DNA of 64,000 nucleotides from Bacteroidales bacterium (GTDB taxonomy: Bacteria; Bacteroidota; Bacteroidia; Bacteroidales; JAADJA01). Below the pieces are notes generated by a model. That model saw only the letters and a program-made list of their open reading frames with translations. It ran no database searches and was not told where the DNA came from. Shown one piece after another: positions 27,439 through 39,375 of the stretch. The stretch spans positions 62,001 through 126,000 of the forward strand of contig JAGQVE010000002.1 of assembly GCA_020438105.1 (NCBI GenBank). Direction: 5' to 3'. Within the stretch, counting starts at the first letter, position 1. The number at the start of each line of letters is the position of its first letter. Both the position numbers and the translations under genes were made by a program.

Positions 27439-29640
27439 TTAAAGGAAAATTTTGCCAACACCTTTTCCTTTTACTTTTCCAATCATTTTACTTTCAGTCA
27501 GCCCGGCGCCAATAAGAGCTTGCAATAAAGGTTTGGATTGATCCTCTTTTATTGCAATCAGCAAGCCACCTGAAGTTTGAGCATCACACAGCATTAACTG
27601 TTGATGATCCGTTTTAATATCGTCCCAATTTACCCAATCCGAAACATACTCACGGTTGTTTAAAGTCCCGCCCGGAATCACGCCGTTAACTGCCAATTGT
27701 TCAACACCGTAAATGAAAGGTATAGCATTAAAATCAATTTGCACATCCATTTTACTTCCTTTGCTCATTTCCATCAAGTGCCCCAGCAAACCAAAACCGG
27801 TAACATCGGTGCAGGCATTTACATTGAAATTATCCATCACTTCGGCGGCAGCTTTATTTAACTGACGCATCACCGATTTGGCCTTATTAGCAAGTTCTTC
27901 GTTAGCAAGACCGCGTTTTAAGGCTGTGGCAATTATGCCGGTACCGATGGGTTTGGTGAGGATCAATACATCTCCCTCCTTTAAGTTATTGTTAGTTAAA
28001 ATCTTTTCAGGATGGATAATGCCGGTTACCGTCATTCCGAATTTGGGTTCGGTATCTTCAACAGTATGTCCCCCCAGGATATAAATTCCTGCTTCATCCG
28101 CTACATCCTGGGCCCCTTTCAAAATTAGCTTTAACACTTCTTCGGGAAGCCGGTTATCCGGAAAACCAACGATATTCAGCGCAAATAAAGGTTTACCGCC
28201 CATGGCGTATATATCGCTCAGTGCGTTGGCAGCAGCAATCGCCCCAAAATCATAAGGATCATCCACAACGGGTGTGAAAAAGTCGACCGTTTGAATAATC
28301 GCCTGCTCCTCATTTATTTTATAAACTGCCGCATCATCCGCCGAGCTTAAGGATACCAGCACGTTTGGATCAATGGGCAAAGGGAAATCTTTTAATACCC
28401 GTTCCAGGTATTGCGGCCTGATCTTGCAGGCGCAACCCAGTCCATGGGTGTATTGTGTTAACCTGATTTCACTCATATCCACCACTGAAACAGGTTTTAA
28501 ATCAGCCGGCGATTTTAACTTATTTACCACCTCAGCAATGCTTTCCACAGCTTTTTTAATCTCATCCGAAGTGTTGTGCCTGCCTGTCGAAAACCGGATA
28601 GTTCCCATGGCAAAATGAACCGGCAATTTCATCGCTTCGAGTACCGGCGAAACATCCACCGAATCGGTATGGCAGGCCGCACCTGCCGAAGCAGCAACAT
28701 CGGTCAATTCGGCCAAAAGCGTGTTGGCTTCAACGCCCGGAAAGGAAATACTGAGGGTATTAGGTAGCCGTTTTTCAGGATGGCCATTAAGTTTAATATC
28801 GGGGAGCTTTTTGATTAACCCATTAAATAATTGATCCCGTATGTTTTGAAAATGCTGTTTATTTTTTTGCAGATCACGATAAGCGATTTCTGCCGCTTTG
28901 CCCAGCCCAACAATTTCCAGAACATTTTCGGTACCAGCCCGGAGGTTCATTTCGTGATCGGCGCCGTGTATCAGTTTTTGTAGTTTCACTCCACGCCGGA
29001 TATACAAGGCTCCAATGCCTTTGGGTGCATACAGTTTATGACCGGCAATCGACAGCAAATCCACACCCATTTTTTCCACATTTACATCAATCTTTCCAAG
29101 CGACTGCGCTGCATCCGAGTGAAACAGGATATTGTGTTTTTTCGCCAGTTTCCCAATTTCTTCAATGGGCTGAATGGTTCCCACTTCATTGTTGGCGTGC
29201 ATCACTGAAATAAGGATGGTTTGTGGAGTAATTGCATTTTCAATATCACTTGCATCCACCAATCCAAATTCATCCACTGGAATATAAGTAATTTTAAAAC
29301 CTTCTTTCTCCAGGTAACGGCAAACCTCTGTTACTGCAGGGTGCTCCACAGATGAAGTGATGATATGATTTCCCTTTTCGCGGTTAGCAAAAGCAGCACC
29401 CTTAATGGCATAATTATTTGATTCTGTTCCTCCGCTTGTAAAAATGATCTCATCAGGATTGGCTCCTATCAAAGCAGCAATTTGTTCCCGCGCCTGAATC
29501 ACCGCCTTTTTGGCCGTTACCCCAAAAGTATGCACCGAAGAAGGATTACCAAAATATTCCTCCAGGTAAGGTCTCATTGCATTTGCTACTTCTTTGTCGA
29601 TGGGCGTGGTGGCGTTATAATCGAGATAGATGGGTGTCAT
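27439..29640 (-). CDS. Fusion of cysteine desulfurase (NifS-like) and selenide, water dikinase (SelD)
   Basis: Protein of 733 aa with two enzymes in one chain. Residues 1-385 are a group I cysteine desulfurase: YLDYNATTP start, PLP lysine K202 in SIAGHKLYAPKG, and catalytic Cys323 in SAGAACHTDSVDV. Residues about 388-733 are SelD: catalytic Cys403 and Lys406 in HGLGCACKIRP, then SADDAAVYKI, ILGGHTVEDTEPKFGM and NACTDVTGFGLLGH. The desulfurase/selenocysteine-lyase half can deliver selenide to SelD, which makes selenophosphate with ATP. The active-site residue is Cys, not selenocysteine. It lies 20 nt after selU in the same operon. NifS-SelD fusions have been reported but are uncommon. Confidence 0.93.
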   Translation of the reverse strand: MTPIYLDYNATTPIDKEVANAMRPYLEEYFGNPSSVHTFGVTAKKAVIQAREQIAALIGANPDEIIFTSGGTESNNYAIKGAAFANREKGNHIITSSVEHPAVTEVCRYLEKEGFKITYIPVDEFGLVDASDIENAITPQTILISVMHANNEVGTIQPIEEIGKLAKKHNILFHSDAAQSLGKIDVNVEKMGVDLLSIAGHKLYAPKGIGALYIRRGVKLQKLIHGADHEMNLRAGTENVLEIVGLGKAAEIAYRDLQKNKQHFQNIRDQLFNGLIKKLPDIKLNGHPEKRLPNTLSISFPGVEANTLLAELTDVAASAGAACHTDSVDVSPVLEAMKLPVHFAMGTIRFSTGRHNTSDEIKKAVESIAEVVNKLKSPADLKPVSVVDMSEIRLTQYTHGLGCACKIRPQYLERVLKDFPLPIDPNVLVSLSSADDAAVYKINEEQAIIQTVDFFTPVVDDPYDFGAIAAANALSDIYAMGGKPLFALNIVGFPDNRLPEEVLKLILKGAQDVADEAGIYILGGHTVEDTEPKFGMTVTGIIHPEKILTNNNLKEGDVLILTKPIGTGIIATALKRGLANEELANKAKSVMRQLNKAAAEVMDNFNVNACTDVTGFGLLGHLMEMSKGSKMDVQIDFNAIPFIYGVEQLAVNGVIPGGTLNNREYVSDWVNWDDIKTDHQQLMLCDAQTSGGLLIAIKEDQSKPLLQALIGAGLTESKMIGKVKGKGVGKIFL

Positions 29641-29660
29641 TATTTATACTTTAATTTTCA

Positions 29661-30689
29661 TCAAAAATTCATTTCGGCGACTGCTTGCTTAAGGGTATTA
29701 ACAATGTTGATATCCTTTTCGGGCGAGCAAGGCAAATGATACACTTTTTCCTGATCGCGCATTCCAAGGCCTTTCAAATAGGCTTTATCGTAATAATAAA
29801 GCAGGATATTGGCGACAGTTTCATAATCTTTTTCAAATAAAGCTTCAATGGATTTTTTTTCATTTAATCCTCCCAAACGTTTGGCGATTCGGTGTATCGC
29901 TGCCTCCAGTCGATTGGGATCAAAATCGGCATAATTTTTCACAAGCCTATTGATGCGCTCTTCTTTGTCAACATCTATGAATAGCACATTCGAACTCCGT
30001 ATTTTAACAAAAAGCGGATCGGGTAAACTCACCCGGCCAATGGCCTTGCTTTCGTCCTCAATCCAAATGGGCTTACTAAAATCAAACATTCGCCATTGTT
30101 CGTAAAGATTGTTTTCAAATTGCTCAGTAGTTGGCTGTTCGGCCTGTCCCAGGTCACCGAAAGCCGAGCCCCGGTGATGGGCAATCTCCTCCAGCTCCAG
30201 CACCTGCTCCCCTGCCATTTTCAGGTTCTGCAATACATCCGATTTGCCACTTCCGGTTTTTCCTCCCAAAATAATCAGTTTAGCATCCTGTTCCCACGTT
30301 TGCCTGATATAATGTCGGTAAGCTTTGTAACCACCCGTCAGTACATTAACCCTATATCCTGCTGTTTCAAATAAAAAGGCCATATTTTTACTGCGCAACC
30401 CTCCTCGCCAGCAATGCAGCAAAACAGAATAACCATTAATTTTTTCCTGTGCCTCAATTACAAATTGTTTCAGCTTTGGGCCAACCAGTTCCATCCCCTT
30501 GAGGATTGCAGCATTTCGACCCGTTTTTTTATAAAGTGTACCCACAATTTTCCGTTCTTCATCGTCAAACAAGGCTATGTTAACTGCTCCCGGAATATGA
30601 CCCTGCCTGAATTCTGATGGAGATCGAACATCAACAATTGTTGTATTTTTTTGATTGGTCAAAAAATCCGCTGCTTCAATGTATTCCAT
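29661..30689 (-). CDS. selU: tRNA 2-selenouridine synthase
   Basis: Protein of 342 aa, also called MnmH or YbbB. The N-terminal rhodanese domain (about 1-130) has catalytic Cys93 in LLHCWRGGLRSKNMA. The C-terminal P-loop domain has Walker A GGKTGSGKS (142-150) and the HHRGSAFGDLG segment typical of SelU. It replaces sulfur by selenium in 2-thiouridine at the wobble position of Lys, Glu and Gln tRNAs, using selenophosphate and a geranyl-thiolated intermediate. It is first in the operon, directly before the NifS-SelD fusion that supplies its donor. No selA, selB or selC is in the window. Confidence 0.95.
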   Translation of the reverse strand: MEYIEAADFLTNQKNTTIVDVRSPSEFRQGHIPGAVNIALFDDEERKIVGTLYKKTGRNAAILKGMELVGPKLKQFVIEAQEKINGYSVLLHCWRGGLRSKNMAFLFETAGYRVNVLTGGYKAYRHYIRQTWEQDAKLIILGGKTGSGKSDVLQNLKMAGEQVLELEEIAHHRGSAFGDLGQAEQPTTEQFENNLYEQWRMFDFSKPIWIEDESKAIGRVSLPDPLFVKIRSSNVLFIDVDKEERINRLVKNYADFDPNRLEAAIHRIAKRLGGLNEKKSIEALFEKDYETVANILLYYYDKAYLKGLGMRDQEKVYHLPCSPEKDINIVNTLKQAVAEMNF

Positions 30690-30830: not shown

Positions 30831-33206
30831 ATGTTCCGAATATTACCTCTTTTAAGTTTTATCATCTTTATGACATTTACTGGTTTTAGCCAAATTGCTG
30901 ATAATACGGAAATCCCAGACACTTTTGCTTTTGTTTGTAACAAACATCCGCATATTGAAATAATCACTGCCAAAACGGTGATCAATCCCAATCCTTTCGT
31001 GGATGATTACGATGTTAAATTTATTAAACTCAATTTGGAAGCCTACGACACCACTGATCAGTTTTCAGGTTATGCGGAAATTGCTGCCGAGGTGGGTGTT
31101 TCGGAGATGGATACTTTTTCGGTGGAATTGCATGATAAACTTGCGGCGGACTCAGTGTTCATAAACGGAACGAACACCCCATTTTCCCATACAAACAATA
31201 ATCTTTATGTTCCTGTGGATCCTGTTTTTAATGCCGGGCAGATGATAACCTTCAGACTTTATTACCACACACCCGAAACCTATAGCTCAACTTATTACAC
31301 CGTTAGTGAATCGCCCACTTATGGCAATTTCAAATCGGCGCACTCTTTTTCCGAGCCCTATTATGCATATGAATGGATGCCCTGCAAACAGGAGTTGACA
31401 GACAAGGCCGATTCGGTGCATATTTTTATTACAACAGATACCAATTTGCGGGTTGCAGGCCCAGGTGTACTCACCGAAGTTCTTTTACCAAACGGAAAAA
31501 TAAGATATGAATGGCGAACCTATGAAAAAACGGCCTACTACCTGATCGCTTTTGCTGTTTCGGATTACCAGCAATACAGTATTTACGCCAAACCCGATAG
31601 TTTACCAGGTGATTCCATTCATATTTTGAATTATGTTTTTGATTACCCCAACTGCCTTGAATCCAACATTAACAGTATCAACAATACAAAAAATTTCATC
31701 GAGCTGCTTTCCAATATTTATGGGCTTTTTCCTTTCCATGAAGAAAAATATGGTCATTACATGTGGTACCCCACCAACTTTTCGGGGATGGAACATATCA
31801 CCATGAGCGGGGTACGTTCTTTTAGCTACGACCTGGTTTCTCATGAACTTGCACATTCGTGGTTTGGGGATGAGATCACTTGCGCCACCTGGCAGGACAT
31901 TTGGATCAACGAAGGTTTCGCAACCTATACGCAATACATCGTCCGTGAAAATTTAATATCCAAAGCCAATGCCGACGCTCAAATGCTGGCCTACCATAAC
32001 TATGTAATGTTAAGTCCAACCGGATCAGTTTATGTTCCTGCTTCATCCCTCAGCAGTTGGGGAAGGATTTTCAGTACAAGATATACTTATCGCAAAGGAG
32101 GTGCATTGTTACACATGATCCGGTTTGAGATGCAGAGTGATTCTTTATTTTACAAAACATTATGGGAATACCGGCAACAATTTAAGGATTCAGTAGCATC
32201 TGGAATGGATTTTAAAAATGTTTGTGAACAAGTAAGCGGTCTCGATTTCGACGATTTTTTCAACCAGTGGTATTTTGGGGAAGGATACCCGGTTTTTGAT
32301 CTCGATTGGTGGCAGGACGAAGATACGCTTTTTTTGCAGGTTCATCAGGGCACGTCAACTCCCATAACGCCGCTTTACAAACTCCACATGGAATATGGCA
32401 TTCAAATGGGAAGCAATGATACCACCGTGCTGGCTTTCCAGCAAACCAATGATACTCTTTATAAAATTATCATACCTGAAGAAGTTACTGATGTAATTAT
32501 TGACCCCAACAATTGGGTTTTAAACCAAACGGGAACAATACGTCATTTGAAATCCTTACGTTTTAACGCATTTCTGGAAGGGCCATTCAATAATTTAAGC
32601 AGTGAAATGAGTACCCTGTTAAATCCTGAGCTTCTTCCTTTACAACAACCTTATAACCAACCTCCCTGGAATTACAATGGAACAGAAATGGCCGTATTAA
32701 TCCCAACCGATGCGGTGGATTGGGTATTGATCCGTTTATTCGACACCACCGATGTTTCCCTGGCTTCTCCACCCGCTCTTATGAGCAGTAAAGCCGGTTT
32801 TATATTGAAAGATGGCACAATCACCGATAGTGATGGAAAAACTCCTATTCGGTTCACAGAAACAGTGAACCACGATTTATTTGTGAGCATTCACCACAGG
32901 AACCATTTATCAGTAGTGGCCGCTACAGCTTTAAATTATGATAAAGGGAATTATCAATTTGATTTTACAATTGCCGGGGCAAATTATGCAAATACACCTC
33001 AAAAGGAAATTCAGCCTGGGGTTTGGAGTATGATTGCGGGCGATGCCAATGCAGACGGGCAGGTGGATGATTTGGACAAAACTGTTTCATGGGAGAATAA
33101 TGCCGGTAAAAACAGCTATGATCCCGCAGATCTGAATTTGGACGGACAGGTTGATAATAAGGATAAGGATGATTATTGGTATCCAAATTTGGGTTTGGGT
33201 AAATAA
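30831..33206 (+). CDS. Secreted M1-family metallopeptidase with dockerin-like C-terminal module
   Basis: Protein of 791 aa from the ATG at 30831, which gives a proper signal peptide (MFRILPLLSFIIFMTFTGFS); the upstream extension does not. The gluzincin site is HELAHSW (about 338-344) with the downstream glutamate in WINEGFATY, and SGMEHITM replaces the GAMEN exopeptidase motif. An Asn-rich linker leads to a module at about 578-791 (LEGPFNN, VDWVLIRLFDTTD, SIHHRNHLSV) ending in two DxNxDGxxxxxD loops (GDANADGQVDDLD and DLNLDGQVDNKD). Such calcium loops resemble dockerins. The module is shared with the S8 peptidase at 37288. Probably an exported aminopeptidase. Confidence 0.9.
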   Translation: MFRILPLLSFIIFMTFTGFSQIADNTEIPDTFAFVCNKHPHIEIITAKTVINPNPFVDDYDVKFIKLNLEAYDTTDQFSGYAEIAAEVGVSEMDTFSVELHDKLAADSVFINGTNTPFSHTNNNLYVPVDPVFNAGQMITFRLYYHTPETYSSTYYTVSESPTYGNFKSAHSFSEPYYAYEWMPCKQELTDKADSVHIFITTDTNLRVAGPGVLTEVLLPNGKIRYEWRTYEKTAYYLIAFAVSDYQQYSIYAKPDSLPGDSIHILNYVFDYPNCLESNINSINNTKNFIELLSNIYGLFPFHEEKYGHYMWYPTNFSGMEHITMSGVRSFSYDLVSHELAHSWFGDEITCATWQDIWINEGFATYTQYIVRENLISKANADAQMLAYHNYVMLSPTGSVYVPASSLSSWGRIFSTRYTYRKGGALLHMIRFEMQSDSLFYKTLWEYRQQFKDSVASGMDFKNVCEQVSGLDFDDFFNQWYFGEGYPVFDLDWWQDEDTLFLQVHQGTSTPITPLYKLHMEYGIQMGSNDTTVLAFQQTNDTLYKIIIPEEVTDVIIDPNNWVLNQTGTIRHLKSLRFNAFLEGPFNNLSSEMSTLLNPELLPLQQPYNQPPWNYNGTEMAVLIPTDAVDWVLIRLFDTTDVSLASPPALMSSKAGFILKDGTITDSDGKTPIRFTETVNHDLFVSIHHRNHLSVVAATALNYDKGNYQFDFTIAGANYANTPQKEIQPGVWSMIAGDANADGQVDDLDKTVSWENNAGKNSYDPADLNLDGQVDNKDKDDYWYPNLGLGK

Positions 33207-37287: not shown

Positions 37288-39375
37288 ATGCGCTTTTTTA
37301 TTCTGTCTTTACTATCTCTTATAACCTATTCAACAATTTTTTCACAGGTAGCTCCCGACACTTATTGGATCCGTTTTACCGATAAAAATGGTTCACCTTA
37401 TAGTATCAATAACCCGGAAGCATTTCTGAGCCCGCGCGCGATCGATCGACGCACAGCTCAGGGCATCGCTATTCAGCAAAATGATATTCCGGTAAATCAA
37501 ACTTATATTGACGCGGTGGCTGGTGCTGGCGCAACCGTTCTCAATGTTTCAAAGTGGATGAACTCTGTAACTGTTTACACCACCAACCCATCAGTAATCA
37601 CAACAATTGAAGGCTTTTCGTTTGTATTATCGGCATCGAAAGTTAGCGATGAAACAAAAAAAACCACCAGTATAAAACCGTTTATTGACAATGAAAAAAT
37701 AGATGAAGAAGGGATAAATAAAATACAAACTCCCGGCAAATCGGGACAAAGCTTTAGTTACGGTTCTGCATATAATCAAATCAATATGCTTAATGGAATA
37801 GCGCTTCATGACATGGGATTTGACGGCACCGGCATGGTTATCGCTGTTCTGGATGCAGGATTTACCAACGCGAATATACTATCAGCTTTTGATTCGCTGT
37901 GGATCAACGGGCAAATCCTCGGAACCAAAGATTTTGTAAGTCCGCTAAGTCCCAATATTTTTGGAAGTCATTCACACGGAACCAACGTTTTATCGACCAT
38001 GGGTGCCAACCTGCCTGGCCAAATGGTGGGCACAGCTCCCCATGCTGATTACTGGTTACTTCGTTCAGAAAACGGCAGTACAGAATATTTGGTGGAGGAA
38101 CTCAATTGGGTATCAGCCGCCGAATTTGCCGACAGCGTCGGAGCCGACGTTATCAACTCATCCCTCGGGTACACCACTTTTGATGATCCTTCGCAGGACC
38201 ACACCTATTCCGATATGGATGGCAACACCACACCCATCACCATTGGGGCTGATCTGGCTGCAAGCAAAGGTATCCTGGTGGTGAATAGCGCCGGAAATTC
38301 AGGGAACAGCTCCTGGTTATATATTGGTGCACCTGCCGATGGTGATAGTGTGTTCACCATTGGTGCGGTTAATTCGAGCGGGAATTATGCTTCATTCAGC
38401 TCCCGCGGTCCGACCTTCGATGGCAGAATAAAACCAGATGTGGTGGCGCAGGGTCAAAGCACTGTACTTATTAATGCTTTTACCGGTTCTGTTACCACCG
38501 GAAGCGGAACATCCTTTTCGTCGCCTGTAACAGCAGGTATGGTGGCTTGTTTATGGTCGGCATTCCCCGACAGAAAAAACACAGAGGTAATGGAAGCTAT
38601 CAGGCAAAGTGCCTCACAATATAGCTCACCTGACGGGTTTTTGGGCTATGGTATTCCTGATTATCTGGAGGCCTTTAATATATTGGAAGCAACAGCAGCC
38701 CATACCATCCAACTTGATCTGAAAATGTATCTTGAAGGCGCTTTTGACGGAGCTATGATGAGTACCAGCATCAACGGGCTTTTACCTTTTAATCAGCCTT
38801 TTATTTCGGCTCCGTTCAACTATTCAGGAAATGAGGCGGTAACAGCTATTCCATCTGTTGATATAGTTGACTGGATATTGATTGAACTTCGCGACACCAC
38901 AGAAGCAGCATTTGCAAATGCATCAACGCAGGTTGCAAGACAGGCCTGCTTTCTGAAATCCGACGGAACCATTGTTGATACCAGCGGCACGGAAATGCCA
39001 TCATTTACCCTTACCGTTTCTGATAGTTTGTTCTTGGTAATTCATCATCGAAATCATTTGAAAATAATGAGTAGCATAGCCCTTAAGGATGATGGAAACG
39101 GCATTTACAGTTTTGATTTTTCCAATAACATCAACAAAGCTTTTGGCATTGATCCTATGAAAATACTCGCTCCCGGAATTTATGGTGTGGTCAGCGGCGA
39201 TGTAAATGCTGACGGTTCAATTAATGAAGCTGATCTCGATTCGGGCTGGGATAATTTTTCAGGGAACAGGGGTTATCAGAGTGGTGATTTAAATCTGGAC
39301 GGACAGGTTGACAACAGGGATAAAGATGATTTTTGGTATACAAACCAGTCCTATGGCAGCCAGGTTCCGGAGTAG
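37288..39375 (+). CDS. Secreted subtilisin-like (S8) protease with dockerin-like C-terminal module
   Basis: Protein of 695 aa. Signal peptide to about residue 20. A prodomain-like region (about 25-150) precedes the catalytic domain with Asp189 (MVIAVLDAGFTN), His230 (SHSHGTNVLSTM), the oxyanion Asn in NSAGNSGNSS and Ser409 (GTSFSSPVTAGM). The last 217 residues (479-695) contain LEGAFDG, VDWILIELRDTTE and VIHHRNHLKI, and end in two EF-hand-like loops (GDVNADGSINEAD, DLNLDGQVDNRD). They are homologous to the tail of the M1 peptidase at 30831. There is no type IX (CTD) or LPXTG signal, so this module may itself direct surface attachment. Confidence 0.93.
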   Translation: MRFFILSLLSLITYSTIFSQVAPDTYWIRFTDKNGSPYSINNPEAFLSPRAIDRRTAQGIAIQQNDIPVNQTYIDAVAGAGATVLNVSKWMNSVTVYTTNPSVITTIEGFSFVLSASKVSDETKKTTSIKPFIDNEKIDEEGINKIQTPGKSGQSFSYGSAYNQINMLNGIALHDMGFDGTGMVIAVLDAGFTNANILSAFDSLWINGQILGTKDFVSPLSPNIFGSHSHGTNVLSTMGANLPGQMVGTAPHADYWLLRSENGSTEYLVEELNWVSAAEFADSVGADVINSSLGYTTFDDPSQDHTYSDMDGNTTPITIGADLAASKGILVVNSAGNSGNSSWLYIGAPADGDSVFTIGAVNSSGNYASFSSRGPTFDGRIKPDVVAQGQSTVLINAFTGSVTTGSGTSFSSPVTAGMVACLWSAFPDRKNTEVMEAIRQSASQYSSPDGFLGYGIPDYLEAFNILEATAAHTIQLDLKMYLEGAFDGAMMSTSINGLLPFNQPFISAPFNYSGNEAVTAIPSVDIVDWILIELRDTTEAAFANASTQVARQACFLKSDGTIVDTSGTEMPSFTLTVSDSLFLVIHHRNHLKIMSSIALKDDGNGIYSFDFSNNINKAFGIDPMKILAPGIYGVVSGDVNADGSINEADLDSGWDNFSGNRGYQSGDLNLDGQVDNRDKDDFWYTNQSYGSQVPE

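Follow-up and report, generated by a model that had tools for sequence, protein, structure and literature searches.

The window analysed here is a 64,000-nucleotide stretch of a Bacteroidales genome in which two genes for secreted peptidases lie on the forward strand. The first, at positions 30831 to 33206, encodes an M1-family peptidase with a signal peptide and a distinctive tail; its open reading frame opens at TTG 30753, the ATG at 30831 precedes the signal peptide, and the start was chosen by inspection. The second, an S8 subtilase gene at 37288 to 39375, likewise encodes a signal peptide and the tail. PF01433 was matched in the M1 open reading frame (1.5e-25, residues 359-506 counted from 30753) and PF00082 in the S8 protein (1.7e-37, residues 180-455), which confirms that the catalytic domains are unrelated, as the earlier note had stated. 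The tails of both proteins nevertheless proved homologous, as that note had also proposed from the letters of the sequence, with 44% identity across 215 columns (E 2e-60). They comprise 214 residues in the M1 protein (32562 to 33203, + strand) and 217 residues in the S8 protein (38722 to 39372, + strand). The motifs LEGxF, VDW(V/I)LI(R/E)L and IHHRNHL all occur in both tails. Judged from sequence reading only, the minus strand of the window (27439-30689) also seems to contain a compact selenium cassette, in which a cysteine desulfurase and a SelD-like selenophosphate synthetase appear to form one fusion protein and the adjoining gene encodes a SelU-like tRNA 2-selenouridine synthase.

Each tail contains two calcium-type loops of the 12-residue dockerin pattern D-x-N-x-D-G-x5-D, and the note had already pointed out two loops with DxNxDG spacing. 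In the M1 tail these are DANADGQVDDLD (33042 to 33077, + strand) and, read from the tail sequence, DLNLDGQVDNKD (33129 to 33164, + strand). In the S8 tail they are DVNADGSINEAD (39199 to 39234, + strand) and DLNLDGQVDNRD (39286 to 39321, + strand), and their residues D160 and D171, and D189 and D200 (S8-tail numbering), respectively, were invariant among 39 module copies of the same genome. The S8 tail terminates in a conserved SQVPE (39358 to 39372, + strand), and the M1 tail ends in LGLGK, lacking the terminal SQVP. Neither window protein nor its tail matched PF18962, PF13585 or the NCBIfam models of the type IX secretion system (T9SS), and no lipobox was visible in either protein, in agreement with the earlier reading that both lack a T9SS C-terminal domain (CTD) and a lipobox.

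Searches of Pfam, NCBIfam and PDB sequences with both tails found no family. The nearest Pfam and NCBIfam matches were sub-threshold dockerin and FG-GAP fragments located at the loops. Dockerin_1 (PF00404) scored 15.8 bits in the S8 tail (cut-off 22.9, E 0.016), covering one loop, and 21.0-21.6 bits in two other module carriers, below the same cut-off. When a sequence profile of the module was compared with the PDB, the best matches were mostly dockerins (best E 0.007). The module and type I dockerins (PF00404) share D-x-N-x-D-G-x5-D loops with a helix after each. Unlike those of type I dockerins, the loops of the module sit in a 215-residue dyad, the X domain of which lies outside all Pfam families.

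The S8 tail was modelled with AlphaFold2 from 99 sequences, and the model reached a mean pLDDT of 97.1 and a pTM of 0.92. In this model, a beta domain of about residues 1-157 is followed by two units that each consist of a loop and a helix, the helices spanning residues 169-179 and 198-208. A Foldseek search of the PDB placed five cellulosomal X-dockerin chains at the top, with weak scores (best E 0.05). After structural realignment of Foldseek's best 1000 chains, the top eight were all X-dockerins, with Z scores of 9.8-8.6 over residues 1-216, namely the whole model. The next match was a lone dockerin, 2y3n_B, aligned to residues 154-215 with a Z score of 5.0, and unrelated folds followed from Z 3.4 downward. 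On the basis of the model, the module is predicted to be an X-module-dockerin-like dyad in which an Ig-like X domain and a two-loop calcium dockerin form one compact unit. In the S8 tail, the X-module-like beta domain (residues 1-157) would correspond to 38722 to 39192 on the + strand, judging from the model secondary structure and the structural match. The dockerin-like part, with loop 1 and helix 169-179, loop 2 and helix 198-208, and an ordered C-terminus, would correspond to 39193 to 39372 (+ strand), based on the model and the 2y3n_B match. Because the predicted structure matches X-dockerin dyads over the full length, the earlier suspicion of a dockerin was right, and the model shows the kind of calcium-loop fold for which structure prediction had been recommended. 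On the other hand, the earlier statement that the tails lack a full, repeated dockerin helix signature did not hold for the S8 tail, since a helix stands behind both loops in its model.

The closest structural relatives are the type II X-module-dockerins (XDoc) of CipA from C. thermocellum and ScaA from A. cellulolyticus (PDB 2b59, 4wi0, 4u3s and 3kcp). As in these clostridial proteins, an Ig-like X domain precedes a C-terminal two-loop, two-helix calcium dockerin; the structural match extends over the whole length (Z about 9-10), whereas the identity is only about 15%. The clostridial XDoc is found mainly on scaffoldins, while the carriers of the module, about 40 in number, are enzymes and adhesin-like proteins. 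Furthermore, unlike the clostridial XDoc, the module has an ordered, conserved SQVP terminus and partners with T9SS CTDs.

The genome containing the window (4.34 Mb in 143 contigs, 90.6% complete) encodes about 41 copies of the module, 35-47% identical to the S8 tail. There is one module per secreted protein, and the proteins that carry it have many unrelated activities. The peptidase carriers belong to families M1, S8, M14 and C10. Other enzyme carriers include a GDSL lipase, a metallophosphoesterase and endonuclease/phosphatase-type enzymes, together with a weak GH57 match; CotH, starch-binding, LamG, PKD, CUB, MAM, GEVED and beta-helix proteins were also found. Among the 38 carriers of this genome with a complete open reading frame, 35 had a signal-peptide-like start by a crude hydrophobicity test and none had a lipobox. 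In public genomes, at least 570 related stretches were detected, mostly in metagenome-assembled genomes (MAGs) of Bacteroidales, and no relative of the module was found on viral contigs. The module was carried by 53 of 395 genomes drawn from the phylum and by 50 of 395 drawn from the class, 95 different genomes together. Copies ranged from one to dozens per genome across the phylum, these counts being lower bounds because few candidates were scored per genome in either draw. The loops are degenerate in distant members. In the window, 4 kb separate the M1 gene from the S8 gene, an arrangement from which one could suppose that two neighbouring genes exchanged a tail by chance or by recent duplication. 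This distribution refutes such an exchange, to which we assign practically no probability: the genome contains about 41 copies that are 35-47% identical to the S8 tail, there are at least 570 related public stretches, and the module occurs in 95 of the genomes sampled from the phylum. The module is thus not confined to the two window proteins; such confinement is what the earlier note had named as fatal to a common anchor.

The module was the last element of the protein in 135 of 147 closed cases from this genome and its relatives, and its commonest ending was Q-V-P-x, often S-Q-V-P-x. In about a dozen of the 147 it was internal; internal or N-terminal modules occur, for example, at L073, at L148 and in proteins fused to FISUMP (Fib_succ_major). 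Internal modules often precede a C-terminal FISUMP domain, as at L058, L061, L067 and L117, and by C-terminal sequence also at L090, L130 and L132; a link of FISUMP to surface sorting is possible. A subclass of modules (L032, L035, L036, L065, L068, L072 and similar ones) has the sequence GGGGQVPAK, then a linker of 12-13 residues and a second S-x-(V/I)-P end, which reads as if the terminal motif had been duplicated.

As regards type IX secretion, the genome encodes the T9SS translocon (SprA_N, E 3e-162), and Por_Secre_tail (PF18962) was matched at least 150 times. The type A CTD (PF18962/TIGR04183) resembles the module in forming the C-terminus of many secreted proteins that are otherwise unrelated, in one and the same genome; the type A CTD differs in having about 75 residues and no calcium loops, and shows no sequence match to the module. 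No protein combined a terminal module with a CTD; L117 alone had both, with the module in the middle of the protein and the CTD at the end. Therefore, either the module acts via a CTD-bearing cohesin partner, which we favour, or the T9SS reads the module directly. According to the latter explanation, the main rival, the module would be a new T9SS sorting domain in place of the CTD, read via its SQVP end and bringing the enzymes to the surface with no need of a cohesin. The predominantly terminal position, the conserved end and the absence of a type A CTD behind any terminal module agree with this idea, as does the occurrence of SprA in every module-positive genome found (95/95). However, SprA is near-universal in the sampled Bacteroidia, being present in 57 of 59 module-negative genomes, and most of the genomes without SprA in the phylum sample belong to one family; therefore, its co-occurrence with the module says little. 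The roughly dozen internal modules also disagree with a sorting role. Because the predicted fold is that of an X-dockerin and because cohesin genes are fused and adjacent to the module, as described below, the sorting-domain explanation was demoted to a rival that we regard as unlikely.

A cohesin-like gene had been proposed as the counterpart to look for, and cohesins were indeed found fused to the module or beside it, several of them also bearing a T9SS CTD. In the genome of the window, only two sites reached or closely approached the cut-off of Pfam Cohesin (PF00963), and contig C128, 6 kb long, contains both. Its first gene of interest encodes a 397-residue protein with a cohesin (27.8 bits, cut-off 24.1) and the module. 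The next gene encodes a 696-residue protein with a cohesin (24.0 bits) and a T9SS-CTD-like end, for which PF18962 gave 19.0 bits over the whole protein, under its cut-off of 27. In addition, contig C88 of the same genome encodes a module protein whose N-terminus weakly resembles a cohesin (20.4 bits, E 0.001), and a 751-residue protein with a weak CTD match comes after this gene. Another arrangement was seen at L154, in the related MAG DeMMO3_5. There, gene 1 encodes a beta-helix, a dockerin, a cohesin and Por_Secre_tail, the next gene encodes three cohesins (PF00963, E 1.8e-18) with Ig-like spacers and a module at the end, and a third gene, coming after this scaffoldin gene, encodes another module. 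The first cohesin of the scaffoldin was predicted to adopt the cohesin fold (Z 16.5). Por_Secre_tail exceeded its cut-off on the cohesin proteins of L154 gene 1 and L157, and at L157 and L176 a cohesin-plus-CTD gene adjoins a cohesin-plus-module gene. This layout is that of a scaffoldin system, with plugs on enzymes, scaffoldins bearing both plug and socket, and sockets with an export and anchoring signal. Two marks of a cellulosome-like system are present in the genes: a cohesin scaffoldin encoded with dockerin-bearing enzymes (C128, L154) and a cohesin protein with a surface-anchoring signal (L154 gene 1, L157).

The number of sockets requires comment. About 41 modules stand against 2-4 cohesin-like domains in the genome of the window, and Pfam cohesins were not clearly commoner with the module (17 of 37 module-positive versus 26 of 79 module-negative genomes). 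The excess of plugs may arise because repetitive scaffoldin genes were assembled incompletely or because cohesins have diverged. The same excess would also suit an independent binding domain for a surface glycan or the extracellular matrix, X-dockerin-like but without cohesin binding, as would the ability of the module to stand in internal or N-terminal positions. We consider this quite improbable, given that the X-dockerin match spans the whole length, that a scaffoldin-type fusion carries three cohesins, and that module genes form a conserved pair with genes of T9SS-CTD proteins.

This gene pair was examined in loci from 58 further genomes in the phylum. In 38 of 42 cases, the next gene downstream, on the strand of the module gene, encoded a protein with a T9SS CTD at its end, compared with 9 of 95 other genes (P 1e-20), as scored with three CTD profiles, two of which were built from these partners. 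Because of this origin of the profiles, the count was repeated with an independent profile made solely from CTDs of the window's own genome, and the difference remained (19/42 versus 7/95, P 7.7e-7). The effect was absent from the 79 close relatives' loci, which represent expanded lineages (0/19); this fits unlinked enzymes sharing few scaffolds, although it is no proof of them. Two families of partners can be distinguished. In the type A family, each of the 18 aligned members matched Por_Secre_tail at E<=1 (best 1.6e-14), and the C-terminus of the second family aligned to T9SS CTDs with a probability of 93%. As for the N-terminal domain of the partners in most gene pairs, Pfam makes no cohesin call and a profile of the domain found nothing relevant in the PDB; a CBM-type match, 2xbt (E 0.22), was not meaningful. 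Profile comparison with cohesins was weak at first (P 0.018) and moderate when cohesins of this system were included (probability 47%, P 1.9e-4). Among the genomes sampled from one deep branch of the phylum, every one has a single module gene, encoding a protein of about 700-830 residues related over most of its length, and this gene is always followed by one for a T9SS-CTD protein of 420-470 residues (L165, L167-L172, L174, L175, L178-L180, L183, L184, L186, L188, L189 and L196). The retention of a one-plug, one-socket pair over such a distance suggests a specific function.

Taken together, the X-dockerin shape and the cohesins on T9SS-tagged proteins nearby make cellulosome-like surface assemblies probable. 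We favour an X-dockerin/cohesin surface assembly anchored via type IX secretion, with a probability of roughly 0.7. The genome encodes about 41 Sec-exported proteins with the X-dockerin-like dyad, and such an assembly would unite the M1 and S8 peptidases with other enzymes at the cell surface. We infer calcium-dependent binding of the module to these cohesins; the complex would then stay on the surface. The original suggestion that dockerin-like tails hold the two proteases on a common surface partner is thereby supported by the spread of the module, its predicted fold and the linked cohesins. With regard to the high-affinity, calcium-dependent cohesin binding of XDoc dyads, what was seen is fusion of the module to cohesins and genetic linkage with them. 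How proteins without a CTD might reach the surface can be envisaged more tentatively: the X-dockerin would bind the cohesin of a CTD-bearing partner in the periplasm, and the folded pair would be exported and anchored together via the T9SS. This hitch-hiking is possible but rather doubtful at present; if it occurs, the two-gene unit of a module protein and then a T9SS-CTD protein would be its minimal form, and the genome with 41 copies an expanded, cellulosome-like form.

In open-access papers, we found no X-dockerin/cohesin system of this kind in Bacteroidota. The nearest precedent within that literature is Candidatus Stygibacter of the Cloacimonadota, for which a cellulosome-like complex with ordinary dockerins has been proposed, in which peptidases and glycoside hydrolases have dockerins at the C-terminus and a scaffoldin with cohesins has a C-terminal surface-attachment domain (PMC8542988). 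That complex differs in belonging to another phylum, in having ordinary dockerins by InterPro and in relying on one large scaffoldin with CBMs (PMC8542988). In addition, the X-dockerin module is part of the Bacteroidota system described here, and none was described for the Ca. Stygibacter complex (PMC8542988). Few C-terminal modules are commoner among the secreted proteins that its own genome encodes, yet the module has no Pfam or NCBIfam family; recognition as an X-dockerin would give a function to many tails now called hypothetical. It also points to cellulosome-like assemblies for proteins and other substrates, beyond cellulose, and raises the question of whether a partner can carry a CTD-less protein across the outer membrane through the T9SS. 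Cohesin-dockerin plugs fit for a Gram-negative surface would be useful tools.

Several individual loci deserve mention. At L056:113-2551, on contig C110 of the same genome, a module protein contains five CxxCH haem motifs and has sub-threshold matches to MtrC and cytochrome c7; it is possibly a multihaem cytochrome that works outside the cell and bears the same plug. Several module genes lie on L093 (JAFGML010000039.1), a contig titled Candidatus Thermoplasmatota archaeon; the study that produced it also yielded module-rich Bacteroidales MAGs, and the contig is probably mis-binned. Finally, the module gene at L160:5342-7001 (genome G294) is broken by a frameshift and an in-frame TGA and lies beside an intact copy and a T9SS-CTD partner, and it is likely to be a decaying duplicate or the product of a sequencing error.
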